NCBI GenBank assembly: GCA_022843385.1
Contig: JALHNT010000012.1
Coordinates: 1 to 64,000 of the forward strand
DNA: 64,000 nucleotides
Direction: 5' to 3'
From: Anaerolineae bacterium
Lineage (GTDB): Bacteria; Chloroflexota; Anaerolineae; Aggregatilineales; Phototrophicaceae
Shown here: positions 8,408-30,238 of the stretch, one piece after another
How the letters are laid out: every line of letters begins with the position of its first letter
How positions within the stretch are numbered: the stretch's first letter is position 1
Program-made: the position numbers and the translations under genes
Notes under the pieces: model-generated
Databases searched by the model: none
What the model saw: only the letters and a program-made list of their open reading frames with translations
What the model was told of the DNA's origin: nothing

Positions 8408-9442
8408 CTACGGCACCAGTTCCGCCCCTGACAGCACCTGCCCGCTGGCGGCGGATTGATAGCTGCCGAAGACCAGCCGCACCGTCTTGAGATTATCCGC
8501 GCCGGTGGTTTCCGCCGCGCCGCCGCGCAGCCCCTTCACCAGATCGGCCTGGCAGGCGACGATGCTGGAATGCGCCACATCATAGAACGGGTCGGCCCAG
8601 GGATAACGCGGCGGCGGGTAACGTTTGGCAAGAGTTCCGGCTTCGGTCGTCTCACGAATCCAGAAATCGGGCGCGAGTTCGAGCGAGCCTTTGGTCCCTT
8701 CGACCATGATGAAGGTCTGCGGGAACGCCTCGCGCTCCAGATAATTCTCGGCATAGGCCATCTCGACCAGCACCGTCACGTCGTCGCCCATGTTCAGCAT
8801 CATGGTCGCCACATCCTCGCCCTTGATATTCGGGTGAGCGCGATGCGTCTGGCAATAGAGGCGGTTGGCTTCGCCGAAGAGGCAGCGGGCGACATCCAGC
8901 GTATGGCTGCCCAGGTCGGTGATGATGAACTGCTCCAGTTCGGCCAGGAAGGGTTGATTCTTGAATACCGGGAAGCCGCTGATCATATCGATGCGGGCGC
9001 GGAAGGGTTGGCCGATGCGTCCGCTATCGAGCATGTGCTTGAACTGGCGGATGGGATACTGCCAGCGCCAGTTCTCGTTGACGAACAGCGGCACGCCGCG
9101 CTGTTGGCAAAAAGTCACCATCTCCACCGCTTCGTCCAGCGTGGTCGCCAGCGGTTTCTGGCACACCACCGGCAGCCCGCGCTCCGCCCCCAGCCGCGTC
9201 AACTGGGCGTGGGTTTCGACCGCGGTGCAGACATCGATGAAGTCCAGCTTCTCGTTATCGAGCAACGCCACCGGGTCATCGTAGACGGCCGGGATGCCGA
9301 ACTCGCGGGCGAGCGCCTCGGCTTTGGAACGGGTGCGGTTGTAGAGCGCCACACATTCGACGCCGCCCGCCTCGATCCACCCGGCCAGTTGATAGCGCGA
9401 CCAGAAGCCGGTGCCGAACATCGCAAAGCGTAATTTTTCCAT
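8408..9442 (-). CDS. apsD: Gfo/Idh/MocA dehydrogenase, probable D-apiose dehydrogenase
   Basis: 344 residues. N-terminal Rossmann fold (MFGTGFWSRYQ, residues ~7-17), the lysine motif CQKPLA near residue 95, and DLGSHTLDVAR near 180 are Gfo/Idh/MocA features. Known D-apiose dehydrogenases belong to this family and oxidise D-apiose to D-apionolactone with NAD. The family is broad, so the call rests on context: it is the last gene of an operon carrying lactonase, oxidoisomerase, DUF1537 kinase and RuBisCO-like genes of the apionate route. It follows the lactonase by 20 bases. A generic sugar dehydrogenase remains possible. Confidence 0.62.
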   Translation of the reverse strand: MEKLRFAMFGTGFWSRYQLAGWIEAGGVECVALYNRTRSKAEALAREFGIPAVYDDPVALLDNEKLDFIDVCTAVETHAQLTRLGAERGLPVVCQKPLATTLDEAVEMVTFCQQRGVPLFVNENWRWQYPIRQFKHMLDSGRIGQPFRARIDMISGFPVFKNQPFLAELEQFIITDLGSHTLDVARCLFGEANRLYCQTHRAHPNIKGEDVATMMLNMGDDVTVLVEMAYAENYLEREAFPQTFIMVEGTKGSLELAPDFWIRETTEAGTLAKRYPPPRYPWADPFYDVAHSSIVACQADLVKGLRGGAAETTGADNLKTVRLVFGSYQSAASGQVLSGAELVP

Positions 9443-9462
9443 CTTGGTTGTTCCTTGAATGA

Positions 9463-11382
9463 TTAATTGTCAATCCATCCCAGCGCATAGGGTGGCAGCG
9501 TCACCCGCCCCTCCGTCACCGCGACCGCGACCGCCTGCTCCGAATGCTGGTCATCCAGCCGGTGCAGGGTTTTCGCTGGGAATGGAAGCTGAACGGTCTG
9601 TGGCAGGTTGCTCAGGTTCGCCAGCAGCAAATGCTGTTGAGCATCGCGCATCAATAACAGCGCCTCTACCCGCAGCGGGTCACTGGACACCAGCGGGACA
9701 ACCTGGGCATCTCGCCACGCGCCCAGTTCAGCCAGCAGGTGATAAACCGGGAAGACCGCGCCGGGCAGCGACGGGAACTTCTCCGGCAGGGACGAACCGG
9801 CCTCAGCCTCCATCAACCCCAGCCAGCCGGTGGTCTCGTACAGAGTCACATGATGCAGATGCCCACTTTCGGCCAGATGTTTGAGGCAGGCCAATGTCCA
9901 GCCCGCCGCGAACAGTGACATCTGGCGTGGATCGACTTTGGACGGCAGCTCACCGGGCGGCGGTGGAATCTCCGGGCCGGTGGCGACCGGGTTGAATTGC
10001 TGCCGGAGCGTCAACGGACTGAGGGCGATGGGCTGGCCGCCGCTGTGCTGACGAGCCGTCGCGATCAGCTCTGGCAGCGCCGCTGGTGTTTCGGCCAACG
10101 AGGCATTGTCGTAGGCATGAACCTGGGGATTAGCGGTGAAGCTGATGAAATCCAGGTGTGCCGGGTCAGGCCACGCGCGGTTGAGTTCAGCGAAGTTGGC
10201 TTTGCTGCCGGCACCGACCGGGATGGATGAGTCGTAGGCGCTCAGGCTGGCACGCGCCAGTTGCGCCCAGCGATCGGCCGTCACCAGCTCGCGCTGATGC
10301 CACACCAGCCACGAGGCCAGTCGTGGTTTGATCTGCGGCAGCACGTCCGCCAGCGCCCGGAGTTCGTTTTCGGCGGCATCGCTCACGACCAGGGTGATTG
10401 CCAGCGGCAGGCCGAGCGCCTCGGCTTCCCGGCTGATCTGTTCCAGCCGCGCCCGCCAGCCCTCGTGAGTCAGGTTGAGTTCCAGACGCAGGTGCGACAG
10501 GTTGAGCGCCCGCAGTCGGTCAATCTCGTGCCGGCTGAGGGGCTGCCCATGACCGGCAGCGCTGACGCCCAGCGGCGGTAAGGGATGGGTAACAGATTCT
10601 GGCTGCCACTCCAGGCGCACTTCATCGGTCACAGAAGCAGCGGCGGGTGGAGCCGCGCCCAACAAGCTCAGGCGAATCTGCTGCCGGATTTGCGTCCCTT
10701 GCTGGACTTCCACCGGGAACGGGAGCGAGAGCGGGGTGCAGTAGGTCTTGAAAGAGGCGTCGATCCAGTTGCGCTGGTCTTCCAGTTCAAAGACCTCGCC
10801 CTCAAAGCGCAGTTCTGCCCACAGATCAGGCGTCACCTGATGGGTCATGGCGCGGAGATCGGCGAAGGGTGGGTGCGGCGTCGGCAGGCCATTGACGTAA
10901 ATTTGCGGCGCGACGTGCAGCGGGAAAGCCGTCATCGCGGCGGAGCCATCGCTGTGTTCCAGCTTGCAGGCCGCGCCGGCGCAGTCGCGGATGGGGTGCA
11001 GCACACAGAAACCGAGGCGGTTGCGCTTGAAGGTCGAACGCGCCTCGCCCTCGAAGGTGAAGCTGATCGTCCCCTGGGCGTCGCCGCTGATGGTCGCCTG
11101 CCAGCCGAAGTCGATGTCGCCGCGCTGATTATCGACGTAATAGCTGATCTGGAAGCTGTCATCGCTGATGTCCATGCGGACGTTCGCCAGCACGTTCGGC
11201 ACCGTCCCCCAGTTGTGATCGCGGACGGCGGCGTAGATGCGGCGGATGATCTCGCGTTCGCCCAGCCGGATGTAGCGCAGATCGCCGTTCTCGTAGATCA
11301 GCGACAGCGGCCCGGCGCGCAGCGGGATCGGTTCGGGTAACGGGGCTTCACTTCCGTAACGGATGACATTTGAAGAACGCAT
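9463..11382 (-). CDS. apnL: Probable D-apionolactone lactonase (ApnL-like)
   Basis: 639 residues from ATG 11382, supported by GAGGA eight bases upstream; a longer frame to 11751 would overlap the next gene and gives nonsense sequence. N-terminal ~300 residues are beta-rich (YENGDLRYIRLGEREIIRRI), the middle is TIM-barrel-like (LRLELNLTHEGW, SWLVWHQRELV), and the C-terminus is a small beta domain with LLLANLSNLPQTVQLPF, as in some glycoside hydrolases. This three-part layout and length fit the D-apionate lactonase family as I know it. It would open D-apionolactone made by the downstream dehydrogenase. Context is the main support; a glycosidase-like enzyme is the alternative. Confidence 0.6.
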   Translation of the reverse strand: MRSSNVIRYGSEAPLPEPIPLRAGPLSLIYENGDLRYIRLGEREIIRRIYAAVRDHNWGTVPNVLANVRMDISDDSFQISYYVDNQRGDIDFGWQATISGDAQGTISFTFEGEARSTFKRNRLGFCVLHPIRDCAGAACKLEHSDGSAAMTAFPLHVAPQIYVNGLPTPHPPFADLRAMTHQVTPDLWAELRFEGEVFELEDQRNWIDASFKTYCTPLSLPFPVEVQQGTQIRQQIRLSLLGAAPPAAASVTDEVRLEWQPESVTHPLPPLGVSAAGHGQPLSRHEIDRLRALNLSHLRLELNLTHEGWRARLEQISREAEALGLPLAITLVVSDAAENELRALADVLPQIKPRLASWLVWHQRELVTADRWAQLARASLSAYDSSIPVGAGSKANFAELNRAWPDPAHLDFISFTANPQVHAYDNASLAETPAALPELIATARQHSGGQPIALSPLTLRQQFNPVATGPEIPPPPGELPSKVDPRQMSLFAAGWTLACLKHLAESGHLHHVTLYETTGWLGLMEAEAGSSLPEKFPSLPGAVFPVYHLLAELGAWRDAQVVPLVSSDPLRVEALLLMRDAQQHLLLANLSNLPQTVQLPFPAKTLHRLDDQHSEQAVAVAVTEGRVTLPPYALGWIDN

Positions 11383-11413
11383 AATTTTTATCCTCGGTTC
11401 ATGACGATCCGCT

Positions 11414-12223
11414 TCAATCCGGGATGTATTGGCGCAGAACCGGCAGGCTGGCGACCACCCAGGCATCCTCTTTCGCAGCCGTGGCGTCGGCATCGGCTTC
11501 CGGCGCGGGCCACAATTCAAGGATGGCATTGAACGAGCGCCCCTGCAACTGATGCAGCAGTTCCGGCAGATCGAGCATCCCCTGTCCGGCGGGTGTACCT
11601 TCGACCATAAAGCCCATGTTGTGGTCGAGACGCCGCACCCGAAAATCCTTGATGTGCAGGTTGACAACATGCGGCCCCAGTTCAGCCACCACCCGGCGCG
11701 GGTCTTCCAGCGCACCGAAGGAATTGACGGTATCGAGACAGATGCCGACATACGGGCTATCCAACGAGTAGATGATGTCCACCAGCGTCCGCACCTTGAA
11801 GCGGTCGTGGTTCTCGATCGCCAGCGTCACCTTAGCCCGCTTGAACTCCGGCAGCATCCGGCGCAGCACGGCGATCACCTCAGCCGGTTCAGGATGATGA
11901 TCGCGGGTATCGACCACCACCCGCAGGATAGATGAGCCGCAGCGCTGCGCGATCTCCAGATAGCGGCGCAGATGATTGGGCTGGATACCGCGTGTGCCGA
12001 CTTCGATGGCGACGCCCAACCGCTGCGCTTCATTCACCAGCGCCATCAGGTCAGCCGATGACAGGGCGTCCAGCGGCAGGTTATCGGCGATCTGCACCAG
12101 ATGAACACCCCGTTCGGCGGCGCGGCGCACCAACCCCAGCGCATTCAACGGTTGGCTCGGTGGGGGATACCCCGGCACGCCAATCGACCAGGCGTATGCG
12201 TAACTGCCAATACCCAGCTTCAT
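11414..12223 (-). CDS. Xylose isomerase-like TIM-barrel enzyme (possibly OiaC-like decarboxylase)
   Basis: 269 residues of the sugar phosphate isomerase/epimerase (AP endonuclease 2) superfamily. Likely metal ligands are visible in order: Glu in AIENHDR, Asp in CLDTVNS, His in NLHIKDF and Glu in LELWP. Its ATG overlaps the stop of the preceding gene (ATGA). Members isomerise or epimerise sugars. As I recall, a non-phosphorylating 3-oxo-isoapionate decarboxylase (OiaC) also belongs to this superfamily, which would give this operon a second exit from 3-oxo-isoapionate. That assignment is inference. Confidence 0.75.
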   Translation of the reverse strand: MKLGIGSYAYAWSIGVPGYPPPSQPLNALGLVRRAAERGVHLVQIADNLPLDALSSADLMALVNEAQRLGVAIEVGTRGIQPNHLRRYLEIAQRCGSSILRVVVDTRDHHPEPAEVIAVLRRMLPEFKRAKVTLAIENHDRFKVRTLVDIIYSLDSPYVGICLDTVNSFGALEDPRRVVAELGPHVVNLHIKDFRVRRLDHNMGFMVEGTPAGQGMLDLPELLHQLQGRSFNAILELWPAPEADADATAAKEDAWVVASLPVLRQYIPD

Positions 12224-13266
12224 GATGATAACCCAAAGATGCGTTCAACCAGCGCGTACAGGGCGTCGGTTGGCCCCAGATAAACCAGCATCCCAAAGTG
12301 ATCGAGGGTGATGCTGCGCCCGGTGGAACCGCCAATCGCATCGCCGCTGGCTTCCATCTCGCCGTTCGCGCCGAACTGCCCGCCATCATTGTACACGTGG
12401 ATGGCATGACCATTAGCCCCCGGCTGATCGGGAATTTCTTCGGCGTACAGGCCGTCGGGATGGATGACGAAGTAGCGGACGAGCAGATAGCTCTGCCCAT
12501 CGTCCAGCGCGTTGATATAGCCGATTTGTCCCCTGGGGCTGGCGGCGCTGTAGCCGGTCTTGAACTGCCGCTGCCCGGTGATGGCGATACGAAAGACCTT
12601 GCCCTGCGGCGTCAGCGCCTGCAGCGTTGGATCGCCAAAGTAGGTAGCCGCTTTCATGTCCGGGTGGCCGAGGATGAACAATTCGCCGCCGGCGTTCAAC
12701 TGCGTCAGCACCCAGCTCTGGCTGACCGGGCCGCTGACTGGATGCGGGCTGAGTTCGATCTTACGCAGGTAATGCGCCCCGATGACAGCCTCAGCGGTCA
12801 TCGATGGGAGAAGCCCCAGGCGGCTGATGCTTTGCTCGACGCGCAGCCGAACCTCGCCCTGACTCAGATTATAGGCCTGAAGCGTCATCTCGGTTGAGAG
12901 ACGAGCGGATCGATCCCCTGCTCCCAGCCGGTACTGACCGGGGTCCATCGCCGCCGGGACGTGGTGCGATCCCCAGAAGTCAGCCCGATCCTTGATGTTG
13001 TACTGAATCTCCGGCGCAATCCACAAGCGCTCCCCGCCCATATTCCACTGCCCTTCGCGGCGGAAGCGGGCGAAGGACTCGGCTGACGCCAGCGCCGGGT
13101 TGATCCAGGTCAGGCTTTCGCCCTCGCGCCAGAACGGGCCGAAGACGCGCCCGCCGCGCTGCGTCACGATCAGGCTGAAGTCATTCCCCAGATCAACCGG
13201 CGCATACGGTTCGTCATTGGCCGCCAGCGCGCCGATCAGTTGGCGGTAGGTGATGTGGCTGTTCAC
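12220..13266 (-). CDS. Mutarotase-like beta-sandwich protein (DUF6786/DUF4380-like)
   Basis: 348 residues with a GTG start two bases after the ApnO stop. Beta-rich throughout, with RGGRVFGPFWREG near residue 35, MGGERLWIAPE near 75 and FVIHPDGLYAEE near 265. This pattern resembles galactose-mutarotase-like proteins of unknown function often found in sugar operons. No membrane segment or signal. In this operon it could interconvert ring forms of a substrate such as apiose; that is inference from context. Confidence 0.6.
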   Translation of the reverse strand: MNSHITYRQLIGALAANDEPYAPVDLGNDFSLIVTQRGGRVFGPFWREGESLTWINPALASAESFARFRREGQWNMGGERLWIAPEIQYNIKDRADFWGSHHVPAAMDPGQYRLGAGDRSARLSTEMTLQAYNLSQGEVRLRVEQSISRLGLLPSMTAEAVIGAHYLRKIELSPHPVSGPVSQSWVLTQLNAGGELFILGHPDMKAATYFGDPTLQALTPQGKVFRIAITGQRQFKTGYSAASPRGQIGYINALDDGQSYLLVRYFVIHPDGLYAEEIPDQPGANGHAIHVYNDGGQFGANGEMEASGDAIGGSTGRSITLDHFGMLVYLGPTDALYALVERIFGLSS

Positions 13267-13268
13267 GA

Positions 13269-14117
13269 TTATTTGGCGACCTTATGCGTGATCTCGGCCA
13301 CACTCTGCTTGAGCGCGTCGATGTTCATGATCTGCTCCATCCAGTCCGGCTTGAAGATTTTGTCGTAAGCCCGTTCAATCGCCAGCTTCGCGCCATCGGA
13401 GAAGGGAAAGCCGGAGATGCCGAAGATGATGGCGAACTCGATGCGGGCGTGTCCGCTCAGGAATTCCCAGGCCGCTTCAGGCGGGACGCCCATCTCAACC
13501 GCTTTGTCAAAAGCCTGTTTGACGGCGGTGATGACAGTGGCGGTGAAGGTTTCGGCCAGCGCTGGTTCCAGGATCGCCATCTGCTCGACGGTGATGCGGA
13601 ACGATTTCATGACCGGCTTATAGATGTCGCGGGCGATGGCCTCGCCTTTGGCATAATCTTCTTCCGGCCCATGATGCAGGGCGCAGACGATGTGGTGCTT
13701 GGCCTTGACGCCGCCGAACCAGTCGGTGCGGGCTTCTTCGGTCACTTCGTCGTTATACAGCGGTGGATGGCAGGGATGGGTGACGAAGTAGGTCAGGTCG
13801 TCACGGATGGGCATGACCTCGGCATAGGCCGCCGCCGGGTCGAGGCCGATGACCATGGTGCGCGGCTGGAGTTCTTCGATGATCTGCTGGGTGATGCGCC
13901 CGATCAGCGCGTCCGGCACCGCCAGGATGACGGCATCGGCGTTCGCCAGCGCCTCGGCTTGCGGCGTCGCGGTCAGGCCGCGTTTGGCGAGGTTGGCTTT
14001 CCCCGGTTCGCTGACCTCGACGTAATACACCTGATACTGCGGCAGGTCTTTGATATTGTCGGTGATGCGGCAGCCCATCTTCCCACCGGCACCCATCAAG
14101 GCAATTCTGGTTGTCAT
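13269..14117 (-). CDS. apnO: Probable D-apionate oxidoisomerase
   Basis: 282 residues. N-terminal Rossmann motif GAGGKMGCRI (residues 9-18), then AVILAVPDALIG and FVTHPCHPPLYN, and a helical C-terminal domain like 6-phosphogluconate dehydrogenases with LSGHARIEFAIIFG. D-apionate oxidoisomerase has this architecture; it oxidises and rearranges D-apionate to 3-oxo-isoapionate with NAD. Strong GGAGGAAG ribosome-binding site before ATG 14117. Placement directly after the DUF1537 kinase and RuBisCO-like genes fits the pathway. A different beta-hydroxyacid-type dehydrogenase is the alternative. Confidence 0.7.
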   Translation of the reverse strand: MTTRIALMGAGGKMGCRITDNIKDLPQYQVYYVEVSEPGKANLAKRGLTATPQAEALANADAVILAVPDALIGRITQQIIEELQPRTMVIGLDPAAAYAEVMPIRDDLTYFVTHPCHPPLYNDEVTEEARTDWFGGVKAKHHIVCALHHGPEEDYAKGEAIARDIYKPVMKSFRITVEQMAILEPALAETFTATVITAVKQAFDKAVEMGVPPEAAWEFLSGHARIEFAIIFGISGFPFSDGAKLAIERAYDKIFKPDWMEQIMNIDALKQSVAEITHKVAK

Positions 14118-14171
14118 GTTCTTCCTCCGAAAGATAATTGTGAACCCGTCCGTAAGTCTCTCTACCGTTTA

Positions 14172-14239
14172 CCTCACCCCCCGCCCCCTCTCCAATGGAT
14201 TGGAGAGGGGGAGTCGAGCCAAGCGAGATGGGGGTGAGG
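14172..14239. repeat. Nested hairpin repeat (R3) inside the operon
   Basis: Outer arms CCTCACCCCC (14172-14181) and GGGGGTGAGG (14230-14239) enclose a strong inner hairpin, CCCCTCTCCAAT/ATTGGAGAGGGG. Related in design to 31542-31566. It lies between kinase and oxidoisomerase genes, where it may stabilise or attenuate the transcript. Confidence 0.7.
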
Positions 14240-14253
14240 TTTCCGGATTGATA

Positions 14254-15615
14254 CTAAACGACGCCGCGCAGCAGGCTGCCGAAGTAATCCGGCTTGCCCA
14301 CCTGCCCGGCTTTGAGTGAAATCTGTAAGCCATCGAATGATGGATTGAGCGAACGCGCCCGGCACAACGGCGCGCCGGGGGCGATGGGCATGACGATCTC
14401 CAGGGCGTAGATGCCCAGTTGATGCGCCGCATGTCCACAGGTATCGCCGCCGGTGACGCAGACCCGGCGCAAGCCTGTTCGCTCCAGCAGTTCCTTCAGG
14501 ATCAATCCCTGCTGCGTCCCCAACCGCTGACCGACACTGGTTGCCCCCAGCCCCAGGGCTTCGAGCCGGGCTTTGGTAGCCGGTATAGCCGGGTCATCCG
14601 GGCCATGCGCCGAATACAGCAGCACATTTCGCCCCTCGCCCAACAGCCGCAGCGCCTCGGTCACCGTCCGGGCGCGTTCATGATCCGCCACCGCCGGGTC
14701 AACCAGCTTTACGCTCTCCAGCCGCAGCAGCGCGAACCCCTGCTCTTCCGCCCAATCGATCTGCGTCGCTGTCCCCGGCGCGGCGCTGCCAGAGACGATC
14801 AGCAGTTGCTCGACAGCTCCAGCGGGCGGAAGCGGTGGGGGCGGATGAACCAGGCCGCTGCGCTGCCAGTGTGCCGTCAGCGCATATTCCAAACCCGACG
14901 ACGATACGGTGAAGATGGGGCGCTCGCCGCGCTGCGACCAGATCAGCGCCCCGATTTTCTCGACATGGGTCTGGTCCAGCGTGTCCAGCAGGATGATCTC
15001 ATGCCCCTCCTCCAGCAGCTTGTGATAACGGGCGGCGATGACTTCATCGGATTGTGCCAGCCCCAGCACATCGATCAGTCCGATCCGGCGCGTCGTCTGT
15101 CGCCCTAGATGAAGCCGCAGATCGCCCTCGTCCATCGGCGTGATCGGGTGCTGGCTCATGGTCGGATGCCGATCCAGCCGGTAGGTGATCTCATTGACAG
15201 TGGCGAACAGATTGCCGAACACAAGATAGCGCTTGAGCGGCGGTGCGCCGACCATCATCGGCACGGCCTGCGGCTGAAAGATGCGCCAGCCGATCTCGGC
15301 TGCTGCGCCGATATTGCCCACCGTTGGTGATGAGTCGCAGGTTGAGCAGATTTTGTAATGGAACAACGGCGCACCCAACTGTTTCAGGGCGCTGAAGATG
15401 GGCGGCAGCGCGGCTTCCATCTGCGCCGGCGACATCGATCGGCTGACCCCGGCCACGCCAATCGCCCGCACATCGGGGAAGTGCTGGCGCAGGAACGTTT
15501 CATCGGGCGCGTCGAGGAACAACACCGCCGGGACGCCGCCTAGCACCAGCGCTTCCATCACATCGGTGGAGCCGGTGAAGTCGTCGCCATAGTAGGTGAG
15601 CAGCAAATCCTTCAT
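14254..15615 (-). CDS. oiaK: DUF1537-family kinase, probable 3-oxo-isoapionate kinase
   Basis: 453 residues, full length for the four-carbon acid sugar kinase family. The N-terminal domain starts YYGDDFTGSTDVMEAL (residues 8-23), the family's substrate-binding signature; the C-terminal nucleotide-binding domain carries RVCVTGGDTCGHAA near residue 390. Family members phosphorylate four-carbon acids or 3-oxo-isoapionate. The gene overlaps the RuBisCO-like gene by four bases (ATGA), so the two are translationally coupled, which points to the 3-oxo-isoapionate 4-phosphate route rather than threonate/erythronate catabolism, whose usual PdxA2/DenD partners are absent. Confidence 0.7.
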   Translation of the reverse strand: MKDLLLTYYGDDFTGSTDVMEALVLGGVPAVLFLDAPDETFLRQHFPDVRAIGVAGVSRSMSPAQMEAALPPIFSALKQLGAPLFHYKICSTCDSSPTVGNIGAAAEIGWRIFQPQAVPMMVGAPPLKRYLVFGNLFATVNEITYRLDRHPTMSQHPITPMDEGDLRLHLGRQTTRRIGLIDVLGLAQSDEVIAARYHKLLEEGHEIILLDTLDQTHVEKIGALIWSQRGERPIFTVSSSGLEYALTAHWQRSGLVHPPPPLPPAGAVEQLLIVSGSAAPGTATQIDWAEEQGFALLRLESVKLVDPAVADHERARTVTEALRLLGEGRNVLLYSAHGPDDPAIPATKARLEALGLGATSVGQRLGTQQGLILKELLERTGLRRVCVTGGDTCGHAAHQLGIYALEIVMPIAPGAPLCRARSLNPSFDGLQISLKAGQVGKPDYFGSLLRGVV

Positions 15616-16862
15616 GAGAGACCGCCATACAACGCCAGCGCCCCGCGCAGCGCCGGATGGGTCTGGGCATATTCTGCCAGCGGGATGCCGGCCAGCGCCG
15701 CTTCCCAGCCTTCGCGCAGACTGGCGACGCCGGCTGCCGGGCCATCAGGATGGGCCATGATACCGCCGCCCGCCAGATACAGCAGGTCGAGGCTGCCGAG
15801 CGCCTGGTAGGTATCCGGTGCCTGCCCGGCCCACTGACCGGATGAGAAGACTGGCAGGACGGTGTAACCATCCAACAGCGGCGTCAGACATTCGCGCGCC
15901 GAGGCGATGACCGACTCATCGCTCTCGCAGAATTTGTTGCGCAGGCCATTGACATGCAGATGATCCACGCCCGCCAGCCGGAAGAACTTCTGGAAGGCGA
16001 TGTATTCCCAGCCGAGATAGGGATGGCGGGTGAGCGCACCCCAGCCAGCGCGATGGCCGTGTATCGGTAGCTGAGAGTGACGGCGCAGATGAGCCACCGC
16101 CGCCAGCCCCACCGGGATCAGGTTGACCATGACGCAGGTGCCGCCGTGTTCCAGCACGATGTCATGTCCGCGCAGCATCTCATCCAGATCGCCGGTGATG
16201 TTGAACGCCACCATCACCTGTTTGCCGGTGCGATCCGCGAAGTCATTGACCACCCGCATCACGGCCTGGACGCGCTCGGCCAGCGGCGAATGTGGCGAAT
16301 TGGTTTGCAGTTCATCATCCTTGATAAAATCCAGCCCGGCCTCGCACAGCAGCTTGACCAGGTCAGCCGTTTGCTGTGGCGAGAAACCGACGCTGGGCTT
16401 GATGATCGTCCCCAACAGCGGACGCCCTTCGACACCGGTCAGGCGGCGCGTCCCTTCAATGCCGAACTGCGGGCCAGGATAAGCATCTTTGAAAGCCGGG
16501 GGGAACTGCACATCCATCAGGCGCAGGCCGGAGAACGGCCCCAGTTCGTACAGATTGCCGCTGACGGCGGTCATGCAGGTGGTCATTGAAGGGCCGATGT
16601 TGGCGAAGGGGAATGACAGCACCACTTCCGCCCGTTGATAGCGCTGGCCTTTGGCCGGTTTGGCCCCCGGCAGCGACGGCACATCCACCGTCTCCAGCTC
16701 GGTGATGCGTTCGACGCGCGCCCCGTGATTCGCCAGCAGTTCCGGCGTCTCCCCCGGCACCTTGACGAAGGTCCCGGCGGACTGCTCCCCGGCCATCAGG
16801 TCAACGGCGCGGCGCAACTCGTGGGCGGTTTCAAGGCGATAGGTGGCGTAAATGCGATCCAT
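15612..16862 (-). CDS. RuBisCO-like protein, probable 3-oxo-isoapionate 4-phosphate transcarboxylase/hydrolase or decarboxylase
   Basis: 416 residues from ATG 16862, preceded by GAGGGGA; the longer TTG start at 16895 is less likely. Large-subunit fold motifs are present: TIIKPSVGF (catalytic-type Lys ~155), FIKDDE (carbamylated Lys and metal ligands, 181-184), GHRAGWGALTRHP and HVNGLRNKF. Form I/II carboxylase signatures are not seen and no phosphoribulokinase is present, so this is a form IV protein, not carbon fixation. In apionate pathways such proteins either split 3-oxo-isoapionate 4-phosphate to 3-phosphoglycerate and glycolate (OiaT) or decarboxylate it (OiaX). Sequence reading alone does not decide between them. 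Confidence 0.75.
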   Translation of the reverse strand: MDRIYATYRLETAHELRRAVDLMAGEQSAGTFVKVPGETPELLANHGARVERITELETVDVPSLPGAKPAKGQRYQRAEVVLSFPFANIGPSMTTCMTAVSGNLYELGPFSGLRLMDVQFPPAFKDAYPGPQFGIEGTRRLTGVEGRPLLGTIIKPSVGFSPQQTADLVKLLCEAGLDFIKDDELQTNSPHSPLAERVQAVMRVVNDFADRTGKQVMVAFNITGDLDEMLRGHDIVLEHGGTCVMVNLIPVGLAAVAHLRRHSQLPIHGHRAGWGALTRHPYLGWEYIAFQKFFRLAGVDHLHVNGLRNKFCESDESVIASARECLTPLLDGYTVLPVFSSGQWAGQAPDTYQALGSLDLLYLAGGGIMAHPDGPAAGVASLREGWEAALAGIPLAEYAQTHPALRGALALYGGLS

Positions 16863-16897
16863 AAGCCGTTTCCCCTCAACCTGCTGCTGATTCAACC

Positions 16898-17929
16898 TCA
16901 GGTCTCGATTGGGCGGATGAAACGTCGTTTGAGCTTCGCCAAATTAGCTTCGCGCAGGCTGTCGAAAAAGATGGCGAGAAAAATGATGAATGCCCGCGCA
17001 ATCGGTTGCAGGTACAGATTAACCAGATTGAATTGCAGTCCGGTACCAACCATCTGGATGAGCATTGCCCCGATGACTGTGCCGAACACATTGCCTACGC
17101 CACCGAACAGGCTCGTTCCACCCAGCACCGCCGCTGCAATCGCATCGAACTCGCGGGTTTCGGCAAAGCTGCGATCCACCCGCCCGCCCAGTTGCGAAGC
17201 CAGGATGAACCCGGCCAGCCCAGCGCAGAACCCGGAGATCAGATAGACCAGGAACAGGGTGCGGTCGGTATTGATGCCGGCTTTCTTGGCGGCTTCGATG
17301 TCATTGCCAACGGCGTAGACCTGCCGCCCAAAGGGAGTCTGGGTCAGGATGAACCAGGCTGCCAGCACCACCAGCGCGAATACCACGATCGGCATGGGGA
17401 TGATGCCGAGCACCAGCGTTTGACCAAAAGCATTCATACGTTCGGGAAAGTCGATCTGCTGCGATTCGGTCAACGCCGTACCCAACCCACGCCCGATGAC
17501 CAGCGTTGCCAGCGTGGTCATGAACGGGATGATCTTCAGCCGGACAATGCAGAAGGCGTTCAGGGCACCGAACAGGGTGCCGACGACAATCGAGACCAGC
17601 AGCGCTGGCAGGATTTCCAGGCCGCTTGAACGCATCAGCAGCCCGGCACAGACCACCGACAGATACATATTCGAACCGACAGAGAGGTCAATGCCAGCAG
17701 TGAGCAGCACGAACGTCATGCCAACGCCGATGATGCCGGCGAACACTGCTGCCTGCTTGATGATGTTGAGCATGTTTTCTGGCAGCCAGAAGCGGGGGAA
17801 CTCCAGTCCGATGCCCTCGATCACCAGGCGCGGCGAGGTCAGACCAAACAACACAAATACGGCGATGAACAACACAATGGTGGAGTTGTTCAGGAGCAAT
17901 TGAAACAGGGTGGACATTCGCTTTTGCAT
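16898..17929 (-). CDS. Ribose-type ABC permease 2 of the apiose operon
   Basis: 343 residues, BPD_transp_2 (RbsC) family with 8-10 helices. Signature stretches are GVGMTFVLLTAGIDLSVGSN near residue 80 and AIAAAVLGGTSLFGGVGNV near 265. Together with the second permease (19464-20645) it would form a heterodimeric channel for the ATPase between them. Gene spacing to its neighbours is two bases on each side. Confidence 0.88.
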   Translation of the reverse strand: MQKRMSTLFQLLLNNSTIVLFIAVFVLFGLTSPRLVIEGIGLEFPRFWLPENMLNIIKQAAVFAGIIGVGMTFVLLTAGIDLSVGSNMYLSVVCAGLLMRSSGLEILPALLVSIVVGTLFGALNAFCIVRLKIIPFMTTLATLVIGRGLGTALTESQQIDFPERMNAFGQTLVLGIIPMPIVVFALVVLAAWFILTQTPFGRQVYAVGNDIEAAKKAGINTDRTLFLVYLISGFCAGLAGFILASQLGGRVDRSFAETREFDAIAAAVLGGTSLFGGVGNVFGTVIGAMLIQMVGTGLQFNLVNLYLQPIARAFIIFLAIFFDSLREANLAKLKRRFIRPIET

Positions 17930-17931
17930 TA

Positions 17932-19467
17932 TCAGTCTCGTTTCATCGGCTCATCGGCTGGCGAATGGTTTTCACGGAAAGCGGCGCTCAGGATGTGCTG
18001 GCGGTCAAACTGGTCGCGGGCAAATTCCCCGACCACCTCACCCCGGCTCATCACCAGAATGCGATCACACATGCCGATCAGTTCCTCCAGTTCGGAAGAG
18101 ATAATCAGGACGCCGCTGCCATCGGCAGCCAGCCGGTCAATAATGCTGTAGATTTCATACTTCGCACCGACATCAATGCCGCGTGTGGGTTCATCCATGA
18201 TAAAGATAGATGGGCGGGAAAGCAGCCACTTGGCAATCACCACTTTTTGCTGGTTGCCCCCGCTCAAGGACTTAGCGGGCTGTTGCCGAATGTCACCGCT
18301 CTTGAGCTGGAGAACACTGGCTGTCTCGCGGGCGCTTTCTTCCAGGTGCTGGGTATCAATCATCTGGATCAGATTGCGGGCAAACTCCGGCAGCGAGACC
18401 AGGCTGATATTGTTGGCAATATCAATGCTCATCAACAACCCCTCTTCGCGCCGGTTCTCGGTCACAAAGGCCATCCGGTTACGGATACTGCTGCGCGGCG
18501 AGGGGTTACGAACCGACTGGCCTTCGACCACGATGTCGCCCTGTTCAAACGGATCCATGCCAAAGATCATGCGCGCCAGCTCGGTGCGCCCGGAACCCAT
18601 TAGACCAAACAGACCCAGCACCTCGCCCCGATGGAGCTGGAAGGATACCTTCTCAACGATCCCGGCAGTACTGACATCCTTGATCTCCAGCAGGGACTGA
18701 TCAGTTGGGGTTGAAGTACGGGGCGGATATAGCTGCTCGATGCTGCGCCCTACCATCAGCGCAATCATGCGATTGACCGGGAAATCGCTGGCGTTTTCCA
18801 GCGCGACCAGTTCACCATCACGCATCACGGCGATTCGATCCGCCAGCTTGCGAACATCGCTCAGGATGTGGGAAATATAGATCAGGCCTTTACCCTGACT
18901 GGAAAGCTGATCCATGATCGCGAAGAGACGCTCGGTTTCCCGTGCCGTCAGCGAGGTAGTCGGTTCATCAAAAATGATGAGAGAAGCATCCTGATGCAGC
19001 GCTCTGGCAATTTCAACCAACTGCCGTTCGCCGGGGGAAATACGATCCACTGGAGTATCTGGTGCGAGATCAAGACCGACTGAAGCCAGCAGCGCGCGGG
19101 TCTGCTGTTTGATTTTGGCGCGATCAAAGCTGCCGGGAAATCGGGCTCGGGGAAAGTCGCTGATGAAGATATTCTCAGCGATGGACAGGTTGGTGAAGAG
19201 GTTGAGTTCCTGATGGATGAAGGCAATGCCGGATCGTTGAGCGGCAGCCGGTGTGCGCGGGCTGTAAGGCTGCCCATTGAGCAGCATACGACCACTATCC
19301 GGCGCGATCACGCCACCGACCAGATTCATCAGGGTGGATTTTCCCGCGCCGTTCTGCCCGATCAAACCCAATGTCTCGCCCGCATTCACGCTGAGGCTGA
19401 CACTCTTGACGGCAGCGATCCCGAAAAAGGCTTTGGTCAGTTCATGTAAATCCAGTAGGGTGGTCAT
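17932..19467 (-). CDS. Sugar ABC transporter ATPase (RbsA-like, two domains)
   Basis: 511 residues with two nucleotide-binding domains. First domain: Walker A GQNGAGKST (37-45), signature ISPGERQLVEIARAL, Walker B LIIFDEPTT. Second domain: degenerate P-loop GLMGSGRTE, intact signature LSGGNQQKVVIAKWL and FIMDEPTRGID. This asymmetry is normal for RbsA/MglA proteins. The start overlaps the preceding permease stop by four bases (ATGA). Powers import of the operon's pentose-like substrate. Confidence 0.92.
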   Translation of the reverse strand: MTTLLDLHELTKAFFGIAAVKSVSLSVNAGETLGLIGQNGAGKSTLMNLVGGVIAPDSGRMLLNGQPYSPRTPAAAQRSGIAFIHQELNLFTNLSIAENIFISDFPRARFPGSFDRAKIKQQTRALLASVGLDLAPDTPVDRISPGERQLVEIARALHQDASLIIFDEPTTSLTARETERLFAIMDQLSSQGKGLIYISHILSDVRKLADRIAVMRDGELVALENASDFPVNRMIALMVGRSIEQLYPPRTSTPTDQSLLEIKDVSTAGIVEKVSFQLHRGEVLGLFGLMGSGRTELARMIFGMDPFEQGDIVVEGQSVRNPSPRSSIRNRMAFVTENRREEGLLMSIDIANNISLVSLPEFARNLIQMIDTQHLEESARETASVLQLKSGDIRQQPAKSLSGGNQQKVVIAKWLLSRPSIFIMDEPTRGIDVGAKYEIYSIIDRLAADGSGVLIISSELEELIGMCDRILVMSRGEVVGEFARDQFDRQHILSAAFRENHSPADEPMKRD

Positions 19468-20645
19468 GTGCGCTGCTCCCGGTTGATGAGGCGTGTGCGC
19501 GTGACATCGATCAACGCCGCCAGTAGAATAAACCCACCTTTCACCGCATCAATCACAAATGGCGACAGCCGCATGGCATTCAGAATGTTTAGCAGCAGGA
19601 CGAAAAAGGCCACACCAAAGAAGGTTCCGCGCACCGAGCCTTTGCCACCGAACAGGCTGGTACCGCCGATCACCGCCGCGCCGATGATGTCTAGCAGCAG
19701 ATTGCCGCCACCCAGCGAGGGTTGACCGATTGCCAGACGTGCCGAGTACAGGATCGAGGCCACAGCCGCGCAAAATCCGCTGAACATGTAGACGCGGATG
19801 ATGACACTCTTGCTGGGTATGCCGGAGATGTCACTGGTGACGCGGTTGGTGCCAATCGAGAACATCTGTCGTCCGAAAACCGTTCGGGAGAGGATGAATT
19901 GGGATACGATTGCCAACCCGACAGCAATAACAAACGGATAGGTGATGAACTGGAGAATATCACGCCGCGCGATGTCCGGTGTGAGCTTGGGGCCAAGGTA
20001 GATGGAAACAATGTCACCTTTGCCCAGGGTGATGAAAGATTCCGGCAGGCCGGAAATGTTGCGCGATTGCGTCAGCCACAGGGCAAAAGCAGCGAAAAAA
20101 GTTGATGTCACCAGCGTGACCATGAACGGAGCCATATTAAAGCGTGTGATCGCGTAGCCGTTCAGATAACCGATGAAGGTGCCGACCAGCAGCATGACCA
20201 GTACGCCGACAGGTACCGCCAGATCGCTCCCGGCCAGAGGCCCACCTTCCGGGCGCATCAGAGTTCCCCATAACGGGCTCTTGTCAAAGAAAGAGGGATC
20301 AAGCGTTTGCGCCATGACAATCGCGCCGACCACGCTGGTGAAGCCCATAGTCGCCCCGACAGAAAGATCAATTCCGCCCAGGATAAGGACGAAGGTCTGT
20401 CCGATGGCAATCGCCAGCAGCGGCCACATATTCTGCACCTGGTTGGCGATGTTGCCGGGGGTGCCGAGTGTCGGAAAAAAGAAAGAGGCGGTAATGAACA
20501 GAATCAGGGTCAGATAAAGCACGAAATAATCAGAAAGAAGAAACTGCCGGATCAGACGATTGACAGTTGATTTTCCGCCGGCGCTGGGTCCTTCTCGGCG
20601 AACCAGGCTTTGTACGCGGTTCAGGCGATCATCCACAGTAGTCAC
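19464..20645 (-). CDS. Ribose-type ABC permease 1 of the apiose operon
   Basis: 393 residues with a GTG start and a ~40-residue polar N-terminal extension before the first helix. RbsC family signatures: IGQTFVLILGGIDLSVGATM near residue 85 and IIGAAVIGGTSLFGGKGSV near 325. Follows the binding-protein gene by 78 bases and is translationally coupled to the ATPase. Confidence 0.88.
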   Translation of the reverse strand: MTTVDDRLNRVQSLVRREGPSAGGKSTVNRLIRQFLLSDYFVLYLTLILFITASFFFPTLGTPGNIANQVQNMWPLLAIAIGQTFVLILGGIDLSVGATMGFTSVVGAIVMAQTLDPSFFDKSPLWGTLMRPEGGPLAGSDLAVPVGVLVMLLVGTFIGYLNGYAITRFNMAPFMVTLVTSTFFAAFALWLTQSRNISGLPESFITLGKGDIVSIYLGPKLTPDIARRDILQFITYPFVIAVGLAIVSQFILSRTVFGRQMFSIGTNRVTSDISGIPSKSVIIRVYMFSGFCAAVASILYSARLAIGQPSLGGGNLLLDIIGAAVIGGTSLFGGKGSVRGTFFGVAFFVLLLNILNAMRLSPFVIDAVKGGFILLAALIDVTRTRLINREQRT

Positions 20646-20723
20646 AGATTATCCCTCGGTCTAAGGCTGCCGTGATCAGTTATGTCGGGGGCGCATCCGG
20701 TTGATGCACCCCCATCATCTATT

Positions 20724-21758
20724 TTACTGATTCAGGAAGCCTTCGTCATAAAGCACACAGCCCCACATATCGCTGCGCTGGAACTGAATGTTGCCAGCAG
20801 TCAGGGCAAAGCCGGGGTCAATCAGCACTTCATTCGGCTGAGTTTCGCCATCGGCAATCGCCTGCAGCAGACGATTCATGGTCAATTCGGCTTCGAGGAA
20901 CAGGTTCTGAACGCCGGTCGCATCGACATAACCCTGGTCGATCAGCATACAGGCGGTCGCGTCGCCATCCAGACCGGCCAGCAGGACATGCCCCTTGGTG
21001 CCAGCGGGCTGCCACATGCCACGCGGTTCCAGCACGGCACGAATGGTCGGGAAGAGGAAGTCAGACGAGGTGAAGATGAAGTCCACATTCGGATTGGCGG
21101 TCATAGCGGCTTCGAGGTTCGCCAACGCAGTGGCAGCATCCCACTCGGTCGCCACTTCGATGGGTTCATTGAACATGCCGGGGTAGCGTTCATTGTAACG
21201 GTTGATGACATTGAAGAAACCGTCACGACGACCAATCGCGTTGGTGTCCTGCAGGGCGCCGACCAGGATCAGCGGAGTGATAGGGGCACCAGTGATCTCG
21301 AACTGACGCAATGCCTTCTGGGCAATGAACTCAACAGCCTGCTCGGTAGCGCTAACATTGTCGGCGACGACGGTGATGCCGCGTGAACGATCATTCGGCG
21401 GGCGGTTGAAGACGGCAATCGGCACATCCGAAGCCTGAGCCTCGTTGATGATCGTTACAGCGCTGTCACCATCCTGCGGAATGATGATGATGCCATCAAC
21501 ACCCTGGGCGATGCACTCGCGGATCTGTTCAAGCTGACGGTTCGGATCTTCATTAGCATTGTATTCCAGCACCTCAATCCCCTGATCGCGCAGGGTCTGG
21601 GTGATCGCACGATGTCCAGCAACCCAGAATTCGGTCTCCAGATCCTGGAAGCCGAAGCAGATTGTGACATCCTGGGCGCGAACGGTACCAATGACGCCGA
21701 GGATGCCCAGCGCCATCACCAGCAAAGCAACGATTGCAAAACGACGCACTCTATTCAT
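20724..21758 (-). CDS. Periplasmic sugar-binding protein of the apiose operon
   Basis: 344 residues from ATG 21758 (TAAGGAG upstream); a longer frame to 21821 adds no signal. Cleavable signal peptide: RR, then AIVALLVMALGILGVIG and VRAQD. The mature part is a type I (RbsB/LacI-like) binding fold with ECIAQGVDGIIIIPQDGDS and IAVFNRPPND. First structural gene after the GntR regulator; the palindrome ATTGTATACAAT lies 148 bases upstream of this start. Ligand predicted to be D-apiose or D-apionate from pathway context only. Confidence 0.85.
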   Translation of the reverse strand: MNRVRRFAIVALLVMALGILGVIGTVRAQDVTICFGFQDLETEFWVAGHRAITQTLRDQGIEVLEYNANEDPNRQLEQIRECIAQGVDGIIIIPQDGDSAVTIINEAQASDVPIAVFNRPPNDRSRGITVVADNVSATEQAVEFIAQKALRQFEITGAPITPLILVGALQDTNAIGRRDGFFNVINRYNERYPGMFNEPIEVATEWDAATALANLEAAMTANPNVDFIFTSSDFLFPTIRAVLEPRGMWQPAGTKGHVLLAGLDGDATACMLIDQGYVDATGVQNLFLEAELTMNRLLQAIADGETQPNEVLIDPGFALTAGNIQFQRSDMWGCVLYDEGFLNQ

Positions 21759-21905
21759 ATCCTTCTCGCTCCTTACTTTGAACAATCTTTGAAACGAACC
21801 GGCACAGTTTGGGTCATGCACACTCCTTCGTTCAGCTATTCATCGTCAGCGGCGGGTTGGCCCGCGCGCTCAGTAACCGGCAGCGCCGGATAACTGACAT
21901 TGCAT

Positions 21906-21917
21906 ATTGTATACAAT
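21906..21917. promoter_or_regulatory. GntR operator upstream of the binding-protein gene
   Basis: Perfect palindrome ATTGTATACAAT. It contains TACAAT, a possible -10 element on the minus strand, though the -35 (TTCTTT-like) is poor. The same sequence with one change occurs in the regulator's own promoter at 22667-22678. Confidence 0.65.
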
Positions 21918-21935
21918 CTGTAGGCACAAAGAATC

Positions 21936-22616
21936 TCACTTTGCGCCCACGATCCGCCGCACACCTAACCGGCATTCCCCGGCCACCCGTTCATTGATGC
22001 GCTGATTAACCGCGCGTAGTTGTTCCAGATCGCGCTGGCGGTAGGCATCCACAATATCGGTGTGGTCGCGGATGGCGTGGTATTCGTCATAATCTGGTAT
22101 GGCCTCGGCACGGACATAGAGCAGCGCCGCAATCTGTGCCACCAGTTCATCCCAGTTGCGCCGCAGCAGGGGATGTTCGCTCTCGTTGATCAGAAATTGA
22201 TGAAATGACATATCGGTGCTGCGGACATTCTTGAAATCGCCCGCTTCGATGAATTCACGCTGCCGTTCGATGGTCGCCTGCAATTGCTGGTGATCGGCGG
22301 CGCTCAGGCGTTGGATGATGAGTTCACCGGCGAAGTTTTCCAGCATCGTCCGCATCGAGAAGATGGTTACCACATCGTCTTCGGTGAAAACGCGCACGAA
22401 ACTGCCGCGATTGCGCGAGGCGACCACCAGCCCCTCGCGTTCCAGCAGGATCAGCGCTTCCCGCACCGGCGTCCGGCTGACACCCAACTGCTCGGTCAGG
22501 GTTTGCTCAACAATATGGTCATTGGGCTTCAGGCGGCCTTCGATGATGGCAGTGCGGATTTGCTCCACTACCTGTTCACGCAGACTGACTGAACGGATCT
22601 GGGAAAAAGAGGACAC
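21936..22616 (-). CDS. GntR/FCD-family regulator of the apiose operon
   Basis: 226 residues. N-terminal winged helix with TLTEQLGVSRTPVREALIL (residues ~40-58) and C-terminal FCD ligand-binding domain with likely metal-site residues in DMSFHQF and RDHTDIVDA. FCD proteins sense organic acids or sugars, often with a bound metal. The gene is upstream of, and on the same strand as, the transporter operon. Two matching palindromes, one before the operon and one overlapping its own promoter, support repression by this protein with relief by an apiose-pathway intermediate. Confidence 0.88.
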   Translation of the reverse strand: MSSFSQIRSVSLREQVVEQIRTAIIEGRLKPNDHIVEQTLTEQLGVSRTPVREALILLEREGLVVASRNRGSFVRVFTEDDVVTIFSMRTMLENFAGELIIQRLSAADHQQLQATIERQREFIEAGDFKNVRSTDMSFHQFLINESEHPLLRRNWDELVAQIAALLYVRAEAIPDYDEYHAIRDHTDIVDAYRQRDLEQLRAVNQRINERVAGECRLGVRRIVGAK

Positions 22617-22666: not shown

Positions 22667-22695
22667 ATTGTATACAGTAGGCAATATACTGTCAA
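22667..22695 (-). promoter_or_regulatory. Promoter and operator of the GntR gene
   Basis: Minus strand: TTGACA (22695-22690), 17-bp spacer, TACAAT (22672-22667). The -10 lies within ATTGTATACAGT (22667-22678), one base different from the site at 21906-21917, and ACAGTA/TACTGT arms fill the spacer. Classic layout for autorepression. Confidence 0.7.
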
Positions 22696-23519: not shown

Positions 23520-24536
23520 TTAGCCGCCCTTGGCCGCAATGTAAATATCGACGGTGGCCGCGGTCACGGTGTAGGTACCGGTGTTGTAATTGATCGGGAT
23601 CGGGACGATGCCGACCTGCTGATCGGTCTCGACGCTGCCGGTGAAGGCCAGCTTGTTGTTGAAGACATCGTACAGCGCCTTGACGCCCTGATAAGTGAAC
23701 AACTGGCGCTTCTGACCGACGCAGGCCGTCAGCACGCCTTCCTTGACCAGCGTCAGATGTTGCAACTCGGCGTCAACGCAGGTGGCAACGATGTCGCCTG
23801 CCCGCCCTGCTTCCTTGAGGGCGGCACCGATGCCAGGGCCAGACTCGCTGTTGAAGCCGGCCATACCCACCAGATCGGGGTTGGCGGTGATGAGGTTGGC
23901 GGCGGTCTGTGTGGTCTCGGCGATGTTTCCGCCGTCGCGCACCTGATCCAGCACCGTCAGGCCAGCCGGTTCGAGGACGGAACGGAAGCCGCGAATGGCC
24001 TGCTGATTGATCTCCTGTTCAGGATAACCCTGGGTCGCCACCGGCCCCTTACGATCCCCCAGTGCCCCCAACATGGCCTGCCCCTGCGCTACACCGAGGC
24101 TGAACCAGTCGGTGCCGATGAACGACAACCGCTTGCTGGCTGGCACATCAGCATCGACTGTCACCACTGGGATGCCAGCGTCGATAGCGGCGTCGATAGC
24201 CGGGATGAGCGCCGAGGGGTCCCAACCGACGACCATCATGCCCGATGGACGACGAGCAGTGGTCTGCTCGACAGCGGCTACCAGGCCGGGAATGTCTACT
24301 GTGTTCGGGCCGGCGATGGTGACGGTGACGCCCAATTCTTGGCCGATCTGGAACAGCGCCGGATGGTCATTGGCGACGAACAGCGGCAGATTGGTGAAGG
24401 CCGAGAGCCACACATATTCCTGCTGCTCCTGGGCGCGGCTCTTGCGGATGAAGGCCGGGAACGAGAGCGCACTGGCAGCCACCGCCGTGCCAGCACCGAT
24501 CTTCAACATATCACGACGCGAAATATTCTTGTTCAT
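23520..24536 (-). CDS. Tat-exported sugar-binding protein, second transporter
   Basis: 338 residues. The N-terminus has a twin-arginine signal (SRRDMLKIG, residues 6-14) followed by an Ala-rich helix, so it is probably exported folded. The mature part is a type I periplasmic-binding fold like RbsB/AI-2-binding proteins (MMVVGWDPSALIPAIDAAID; AGFNSESGPGIGAALKE). Last gene of the ATPase-permease-SBP operon, after a 144-base gap. Ligand unknown; control by the FadR-type regulator is inferred from the operator upstream of the operon. Confidence 0.85.
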   Translation of the reverse strand: MNKNISRRDMLKIGAGTAVAASALSFPAFIRKSRAQEQQEYVWLSAFTNLPLFVANDHPALFQIGQELGVTVTIAGPNTVDIPGLVAAVEQTTARRPSGMMVVGWDPSALIPAIDAAIDAGIPVVTVDADVPASKRLSFIGTDWFSLGVAQGQAMLGALGDRKGPVATQGYPEQEINQQAIRGFRSVLEPAGLTVLDQVRDGGNIAETTQTAANLITANPDLVGMAGFNSESGPGIGAALKEAGRAGDIVATCVDAELQHLTLVKEGVLTACVGQKRQLFTYQGVKALYDVFNNKLAFTGSVETDQQVGIVPIPINYNTGTYTVTAATVDIYIAAKGG

Positions 24537-24680
24537 GGTTGAAAGGTCTCCTTATGAGCAAAGACTTATTAGACTTTTGAAGCCGGTCTATGACTGCGGG
24601 ATGGATGAACGGTGACTGCCTCCTTTCTTCGATTAAGGACTGTGCAGGATTGGGCTGGCCGAGCCGCCACAGATTGGCGA

Positions 24681-25670: not shown

Positions 25671-25685
25671 AATCTTCTCCGGCCT

Positions 25686-29135: not shown

Positions 29136-29145
29136 CGTCGGCTCC

Positions 29146-30228: not shown

Positions 30229-30238
30229 AAGTCCCCCT

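Follow-up and report, generated by a model that had tools for sequence, protein, structure and literature searches.

A central question raised by the 64,000-nucleotide stretch analyzed here (the window; contig JALHNT010000012.1 of an Anaerolineae bacterium, phylum Chloroflexota) is whether the genes at positions 8408-22616 form an operon for the breakdown of the branched sugar D-apiose and, if so, which reaction is catalyzed by the RuBisCO-like protein (RLP) that it encodes. The apiose-type operon is real and conserved, and is a variant of a route known from Proteobacteria; a probable exchange of its RLP is the part of most interest. Judged by homology and gene order, the locus very probably encodes the apiose pathway, and it is probably a self-regulated unit for D-apiose uptake and oxidative catabolism in which the RLP performs a step of the OiaT type.

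Carter et al. reportedly described the oxidative D-apiose pathway of Proteobacteria in 2018, including the sequence of its reactions and what OiaX, OiaT, and OiaC produce. A passage of PMC11747546 describes a Rhodobacteraceae strain that grows on D-apiose and has such a cluster. In the scheme proposed for the window, the importer would take up apiose, and the DUF6786 protein, which has a mutarotase-like fold, may accelerate the exchange of apiose ring forms. ApsD would oxidize apiose to apionolactone, ApnL would open the lactone to D-apionate, and ApnO would perform an oxidation and the migration of a hydroxymethyl group to yield 3-oxo-isoapionate. This intermediate would be phosphorylated by OiaK, after which an OiaT-type RLP would shift the carboxyl group and hydrolyze a C-C bond to release 3-phosphoglycerate and glycolate. 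The GntR protein would keep the operon repressed at two palindromes until it binds an intermediate.

Open reading frames and Pfam/NCBIfam profile searches place twelve genes at 8408-22616, all on the minus strand, listed here in the order of transcription:

21936..22616, minus strand: gntR, GntR/FCD regulator, 226 amino acids (aa), GTG start (PF00392, E 1.8e-19; PF07729, E 2.2e-17)
20724..21821, minus strand: sugar-binding protein (SBP), ribose/xylose type, 365 aa, with an internal ATG at codon 22 as the alternative start (PF13407, Peripla_BP_4, E 5.4e-38)
19464..20645, minus strand: ABC permease 1 (PF02653, BPD_transp_2, E 7.6e-32)
17932..19467, minus strand: ABC sugar ATPase with two domains (PF00005, two stretches)
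16898..17929, minus strand: ABC permease 2 (PF02653, BPD_transp_2, E 7.1e-42)
15612..16895, minus strand: RLP, interpreted as OiaT-type, starting at a TTG or at the ATG of codon 12 (PF00016, E 3.7e-69; OiaX model NF042437)
14254..15615, minus strand: OiaK-type DUF1537 kinase, predicted 3-oxo-isoapionate kinase (NF042436, 541 bits, E 2e-162)
13269..14117, minus strand: ApnO-type D-apionate oxidoisomerase, PGDH_C (PF16896, E 3.8e-52)
12220..13266, minus strand: DUF6786 protein, candidate apiose mutarotase (PF20583, E 2.4e-9)
11414..12223, minus strand: OiaC-like TIM barrel of the xylose-isomerase type, AP_endonuc_2 (PF01261, E 2.4e-21)
9463..11382, minus strand: ApnL-type D-apionate lactonase, 639 aa (NF049900, E 2.8e-89)
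8408..9442, minus strand: ApsD-type D-apiose dehydrogenase, Gfo/Idh/MocA (PF01408, E 3e-23)

The genes are closely packed, with 4-base-pair overlaps at three junctions (permease 1/ATPase, RLP/OiaK, and DUF6786/TIM barrel), 2-base-pair gaps at three more (ATPase/permease 2, permease 2/RLP, and ApnO/DUF6786), and 20, 31, 78, 114, and 136 base pairs at the remaining five. The original prediction, made from the letters alone, had described a one-strand gene set with overlapping or nearly abutting junctions, and both descriptions hold, as do the families it assigned. Its gene list was offered as complete; the named genes are present, but the DUF6786 gene and the OiaC-like TIM barrel had been missed. 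Its lactonase of about 640 residues is recovered at 639 aa with an NF049900 match of 300 bits, below the cut-off of 750. The start of this gene is best put at 11382 rather than at the start of a 762-aa open reading frame, because the NF049900 match opens at residue 131 of the longer frame and relatives align there.

Assignment to the apiose pathway relies on the combination of genes and their homologs. ApsD, ApnL, ApnO, OiaK, and RLP are encoded together with a sugar importer in the window, and the same five enzymes occur with a sugar ABC importer in Shinella (L006), Microvirga (L144), and Paraburkholderia (L002/L143); an R. etli cluster (L149) shows the enzyme set in a stretch that ends before its lactonase. 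By BLAST against genes from proteobacterial clusters, which are mostly complete apiose clusters, identity is 40-44% for the dehydrogenase (five references), 43-49% for OiaK (four references, with 49% to the annotated Paraburkholderia OiaK), and 47-62% for the RLP (four references). ApnO is 44-52% identical to five references (52% to Microvirga, 49% to an R. etli cluster protein) and 35% to Erwinia, ApnL is 29-31% identical to four references, including a Mesorhizobium gene that is not part of a full cluster, and the SBP reaches only 22%, to two proteobacterial SBPs. The originally proposed likeness to ApsD, ApnL, ApnO, and OiaK is supported by these values, and the proposed series from apiose through apionolactone, apionate, and 3-oxo-isoapionate to its 4-phosphate finds, for each step, a homolog in the proteobacterial clusters. 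The solved structure nearest to the dehydrogenase is 5uhw (E 2.2e-77; entry name 'Oxidoreductase protein'), which we take to be Agrobacterium ApsD. ApnO matches 5t57 (E 5e-76) and the RLP matches 3nwr (E 5e-131), and at the thresholds used there is no meaningful solved-structure match for ApnL or DUF6786.

The window thus shares with the proteobacterial pathway an ABC importer, ApsD, ApnL, ApnO, OiaK, an RLP, and a nearby GntR-family (NanR-named) regulator. In contrast to the proteobacterial clusters, it belongs to a Chloroflexota host, carries extra DUF6786 and OiaC-like genes, has two permeases and no DUF2291 gene, follows another gene order, and encodes a distant SBP and ApnL. The structural model of ApnL (pLDDT 80), a protein with no Pfam match, combines a beta-sandwich with a GH30-like barrel; its top Foldseek matches are GH30 xylanases, which is odd for a lactonase.

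The genome of the window (G000) is a metagenome-assembled genome (MAG) of 7.85 Mb in 117 contigs, with a completeness of 95.7% and an estimated contamination of 7.0%. Among 41 genomes searched for OiaK (this one and 40 relatives), 14 have a match to the OiaK model, which is full-length in ten, among them G408 with an in-frame TAG. The complete twelve-gene order is identical in the window and in G414, G409, and G413, and so the gene set is beyond chance. The ApnO, DUF6786, OiaC-like, and ApsD genes are grouped in eight of the ten genomes with a full-length OiaK, with ApnL between them in four. In G408, G406, G412, and G421, gntR and the importer separate a block of ApnL, RLP, and OiaK from the ApnO-DUF6786-OiaC-like-Gfo block. 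The stretches read of G423 and G420 contain no DUF6786 or OiaC-like gene, and that of G420 also contains no ApnO or ApsD. Across 400 genomes of the phylum, the window's included, an RLP that scores more than 430 bits with the OiaX model is found only in the window's genome, G365, and G273, and an ApnL match is found in 18. As a marker of apiose use in the phylum, ApnL is weak; among the 17 other neighborhoods, some of them on contigs of only 3-6 kb, only that of G365 also contains RLP, OiaK, and ApnO genes and matches Gfo strongly.

Several observations weigh against the assignment to apiose. All three NCBIfam models score below their curated cut-offs (ApnL 300 of 750 bits, OiaK 541 of 700, OiaX 492 of 700), which argues only weakly against membership because the OiaK of the Shinella cluster likewise falls under the NF042436 cut-off (438 of 700). 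The ApnL homologs of the phylum mostly have no OiaK or RLP neighbors, several of their contigs being short, and the window comes from a MAG with an estimated contamination of 7%. No apiose genes lie within ∼8 kb of eight RLP and kinase pairs (L145, L146, L148, L151, L227-L230), so that the RLP-kinase module is not specific to apiose. These pairs, together with the low identities of ApnL and the SBP to proteobacterial proteins and the fact that no ApsD model matches the dehydrogenase in the NCBIfam search, would also fit an operon for a different branched sugar or lactone. Such a substrate is quite improbable, given that five pathway enzymes are encoded together and that ApnO and ApsD are close to apiose-cluster proteins.

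Two RLP reactions on 3-oxo-isoapionate-4-phosphate, decarboxylation and transcarboxylation/hydrolysis, are reported in a passage of PMC6302742 for the enzymes of A. radiobacter K84 and X. autotrophicus. The original prediction had placed the window protein correctly in the RuBisCO-large family but left its type, OiaT or OiaX, unsettled. The nearest NCBIfam model is OiaX (NF042437, 492 bits, E 1.4e-147, cut-off 700), and the protein is 62% identical to the Microvirga RLP, 59% to that of Paraburkholderia, and 48% to R. etli OiaX. A tree of 30 rows groups the G408, G406, and G412 RLPs with annotated OiaX (support 100/99) and the window RLP with those of G413, G414, and G409 (100/99). The OiaX clade has a support of 85/98 in another tree, built without active-site columns and without four rows that were long or outgroups, and of 97/99 with nine more plasmid rows; the window remains outside the clade throughout. 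Vertical descent of all eleven RLPs of the family as one clade is rejected by the approximately unbiased test (p 0.0004 without the active-site columns, 0.001 with more rows), for a group named after the first tree was seen and with rows chosen by hand. The kinases of G408, G406, and G412 fall within the nine-row Chloroflexota group (95/91; that of G408 was included only up to its TAG). Since three operons of the same genus pair an RLP of the OiaX clade with an OiaK of the Chloroflexota type, close relatives probably exchanged the RLP for another kind inside an operon that was otherwise kept.

Catalytic residues separate the two groups of RLPs as well. The comparison covers 34 RLPs picked from match lists, among ∼300 plasmid records, and uses spinach RuBisCO numbering and residue roles as we presume them to be. 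E60, N123, and S379 are replaced in all ten rows of the OiaX clade and kept in all 24 others, the window included, while K175, K201, D203, E204, H294, R295, and K334 are kept in 34 of 34. H327 is glutamine in the seven proteobacterial rows of the OiaX clade and histidine in the three Chloroflexota rows and in the window; the Chloroflexota RLPs of this clade are therefore not identical to OiaX. At 11 of 12 checked positions the window RLP is as in RuBisCO, the exception being K177, which is serine. With OiaX, the window RLP shares a RuBisCO-like fold, the K201/D203/E204 triad, and the pairing with OiaK; it differs in its 48% identity, its clade, and the retention of E60, N123, H327, and S379, which are changed in annotated OiaX. 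We infer that a complete set of RuBisCO-type catalytic residues may be the defining mark of OiaT. Xanthobacter OiaT, a transcarboxylase/hydrolase according to PMC6302742, would be expected to retain the residues for RuBisCO carboxylation and hydrolysis, as the window RLP does. The window RLP may still carry out the part of RuBisCO chemistry that comprises carboxylation and hydrolysis, which argues that it is of the OiaT type, a transcarboxylase/hydrolase, rather than of the OiaX type; this assignment is rather likely. Naming the protein OiaX on the strength of its best model was rejected on tree position and residues.

An apiose pathway in which the window RLP is nevertheless an OiaX-type decarboxylase, making L-erythrulose 1-phosphate despite the retained residues, is unlikely. 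Beyond the top model, this reading draws on the OiaX-clade RLPs that occupy the same kind of operon in three relatives and on an RpiB of the window's genome that is near D-erythrulose-4-phosphate isomerase (199 bits, cut-off 240). It is opposed by the position outside the OiaX clade and the four retained residues, by the single TIM gene found in the genome, and by the DerI-like gene, which lies beside FGGY kinases and away from the operon. The R. etli OiaX cluster contains genes for TIM and D-erythrulose-4-phosphate isomerase (258 bits, cut-off 240), and the window operon has neither. D-Erythrulose-4-phosphate isomerase was rejected as an operon partner, as in G000, G409, and G413 the genes close to DerI lie with kinases that read as FGGY-type from sequence. 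Some points also stand against the OiaT-type assignment. LerI/DerI-type genes adjoin only one of seven fetched proteobacterial OiaX-clade genes; pyruvate kinase or enolase/ppc adjoins only three of 14 fetched plasmid RLPs outside the OiaX clade (L145, L147, L229), among which L152 is without annotation; no Xanthobacter record is among the RLP matches listed (best 60 and 45 of ∼300), so that the tree is without a characterized OiaT; and the deep RLP forks are not resolved.

The OiaC-like gene fits nowhere in the proposed scheme, which is a further point against it. This gene would have a role in a branched pathway, with decarboxylation of 3-oxo-isoapionate to L-erythrulose by the OiaC-like protein and a second route from that intermediate through OiaK and the RLP; such a branch is doubtful without being far-fetched. 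A role in place of LerI was also considered for the protein. In an Erwinia operon (L116), which matches the OiaC route and also has a DhaK-type kinase, a homolog that is presumably OiaC lies between a LerI-type TIM gene and the ApnO gene. The window protein is 33% identical to this ApnO-linked homolog, 37% to that of Shinella, and 33-38% to the plasmid homologs aligned, identities that tell against the branch. It keeps the putative metal-binding and pocket residues of the ApnO-linked homolog, and 29 columns are invariant in an alignment of 15 rows, including E137, D164, H190, and E236, which we take to be metal ligands from the superfamily. Wherever a locus has the gene, it is positioned between those of ApnO and ApsD. 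In contrast, neither an L-erythrulose kinase of the DhaK type nor a LerI/TIM gene was found at the window locus. A Dak1-type kinase is present in three of the ten genomes, all three among the eight with an OiaC-like gene, and lies on another contig in the window's own genome. No second TIM was found; nine of the ten genomes have exactly one and G421 has none, an absence that is soft in incomplete MAGs. No NCBIfam model names the OiaC-like protein, and a search of E. coli with the Erwinia gene gives no match. OiaC-like genes also occur in three TRAP clusters (L117, L118, L119) with a split transketolase and an SDR, and with a DhaK-type kinase in L117 and L118; these clusters may represent a further branched-sugar pathway.

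The structural model of the DUF6786 protein (pLDDT 91.8) resembles aldose 1-epimerases (GalM, 3nre, 1ns4) in overall fold, and its first eleven Foldseek matches are aldose epimerases or galactose mutarotases. The best match, 3nre (E 4.8e-8, probability 1.00, TM 0.43/0.50, root-mean-square deviation (rmsd) 9.3), identifies the fold class only; the match to the epimerases is loose (TM 0.35-0.50, rmsd 7-12 Å), with 8-11% identity. H290, E303, and E305 are conserved. Two peptide patterns derived from an alignment and searched in 84,980 species genomes give 22 DUF6786 loci, seven of them in genomes already studied here. ApnO, OiaC-like, and ApsD genes lie alongside at nine, ApnL alone at one, and 12 lie elsewhere or on short contigs, which rules out DUF6786 as an apiose-only family. 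Twelve of the 22 are labeled Chloroflexi, Chloroflexota, Anaerolineae, or Aggregatilineales, in keeping with the Chloroflexota-like genome originally proposed. Since the galactose-mutarotase-like fold also occurs in non-mutarotases (phosphorylases appear lower in the same Foldseek list) and DUF6786 sits in other sugar clusters, the protein is a mutarotase candidate only, with about even chances. At L125 and L129, DUF6786 lies beside genes that read as fucose-isomerase-like, SAF/homoserine-dehydrogenase-like, and zinc dehydrogenase genes. No mention of DUF6786 was found in the literature searched.

A broader proposal can be put forward tentatively, with slightly less than an even chance of being right. 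Within one genus, a conserved apiose operon may have been refitted with a mechanistically different RLP, either a transcarboxylase/hydrolase that keeps E60, N123, and S379 or a decarboxylase that has lost them, with OiaK and the rest kept; these three residues would then separate carboxyl transfer and hydrolysis from decarboxylation, and DUF6786 would act as the mutarotase of a branched sugar. Two natural RLPs that occur in one kind of operon and presumably share a substrate offer a testbed for the residues that decide between RuBisCO-like carboxylation/hydrolysis and plain decarboxylation. The operon extends a branched-sugar pathway characterized in Proteobacteria to an uncultured Chloroflexota family and suggests functions for two unnamed genes, those of DUF6786 and the OiaC-like protein. 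A Chloroflexota apiose operon is not described in the apiose passages of the literature that names both; these passages mention form IV RuBisCO or refer to Carter et al.

Regulation is suggested by two putative operators, located by exact pattern search:

21906..21917, no strand assigned: palindrome ATTGTATACAAT, a putative operator lying between gntR and the importer
22667..22678, no strand assigned: putative operator ATTGTATACAGT, upstream of gntR

The palindromes (ATTGTATACAAT/GT) are the only exact matches to ATTGTATACART in the 7.85 Mb assembly, and a reversed-pattern control gives none. Among nine relatives examined, the motif is present at both spots in G414, G409, G413, and G406, which also have the same 12-mer between gntR and the SBP gene; G412 has a single exact copy, G408 and G423 each have one copy that is one letter off, and the motif is absent at the locus in G421 and G420. 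A GntR/FCD gene is present at the locus in nine of the ten OiaK-bearing genomes, the window's included. We infer that the GntR/FCD protein may autoregulate the operon through these palindromes.

The original prediction held that the operon implies the use of plant polymers, which is plausible. The apiosidase family PF13204 is found at three places in the window's genome and in six of the ten genomes, and GH28 at one place and in two of the ten. In the window's genome these genes lie on contigs other than that of the operon, with no exact operator copy there, and so the backing is indirect.

Additional observations concern the surroundings and relatives of the operon. Directly upstream, a second ribose-type SBP and ATPase lie at 23520-27215 of the window, and, apart from these, two binding-protein-dependent permeases at 28281-30315. 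Two haloarchaeal plasmids (L003, L146) encode OiaK-type kinases 50% and 46% identical to that of the window, in L146 together with an RLP (59%); no ApnL or ApsD gene is found in the stretches read, and these kinases likely serve another substrate. The apiose operon of G408 (L094) has an in-frame TAG in OiaK (minus strand, 8979-8981) and another in the ATPase gene (plus strand, 17588-17590), which reflect decay or an assembly error in the MAG. Apiose operons of the Chloroflexota type also occur on contigs labeled Bacteroidetes (L127) and Pleurocapsa minor (L133); the Bacteroidetes label is probably wrong, and L127 probably belongs to the genus of the window.

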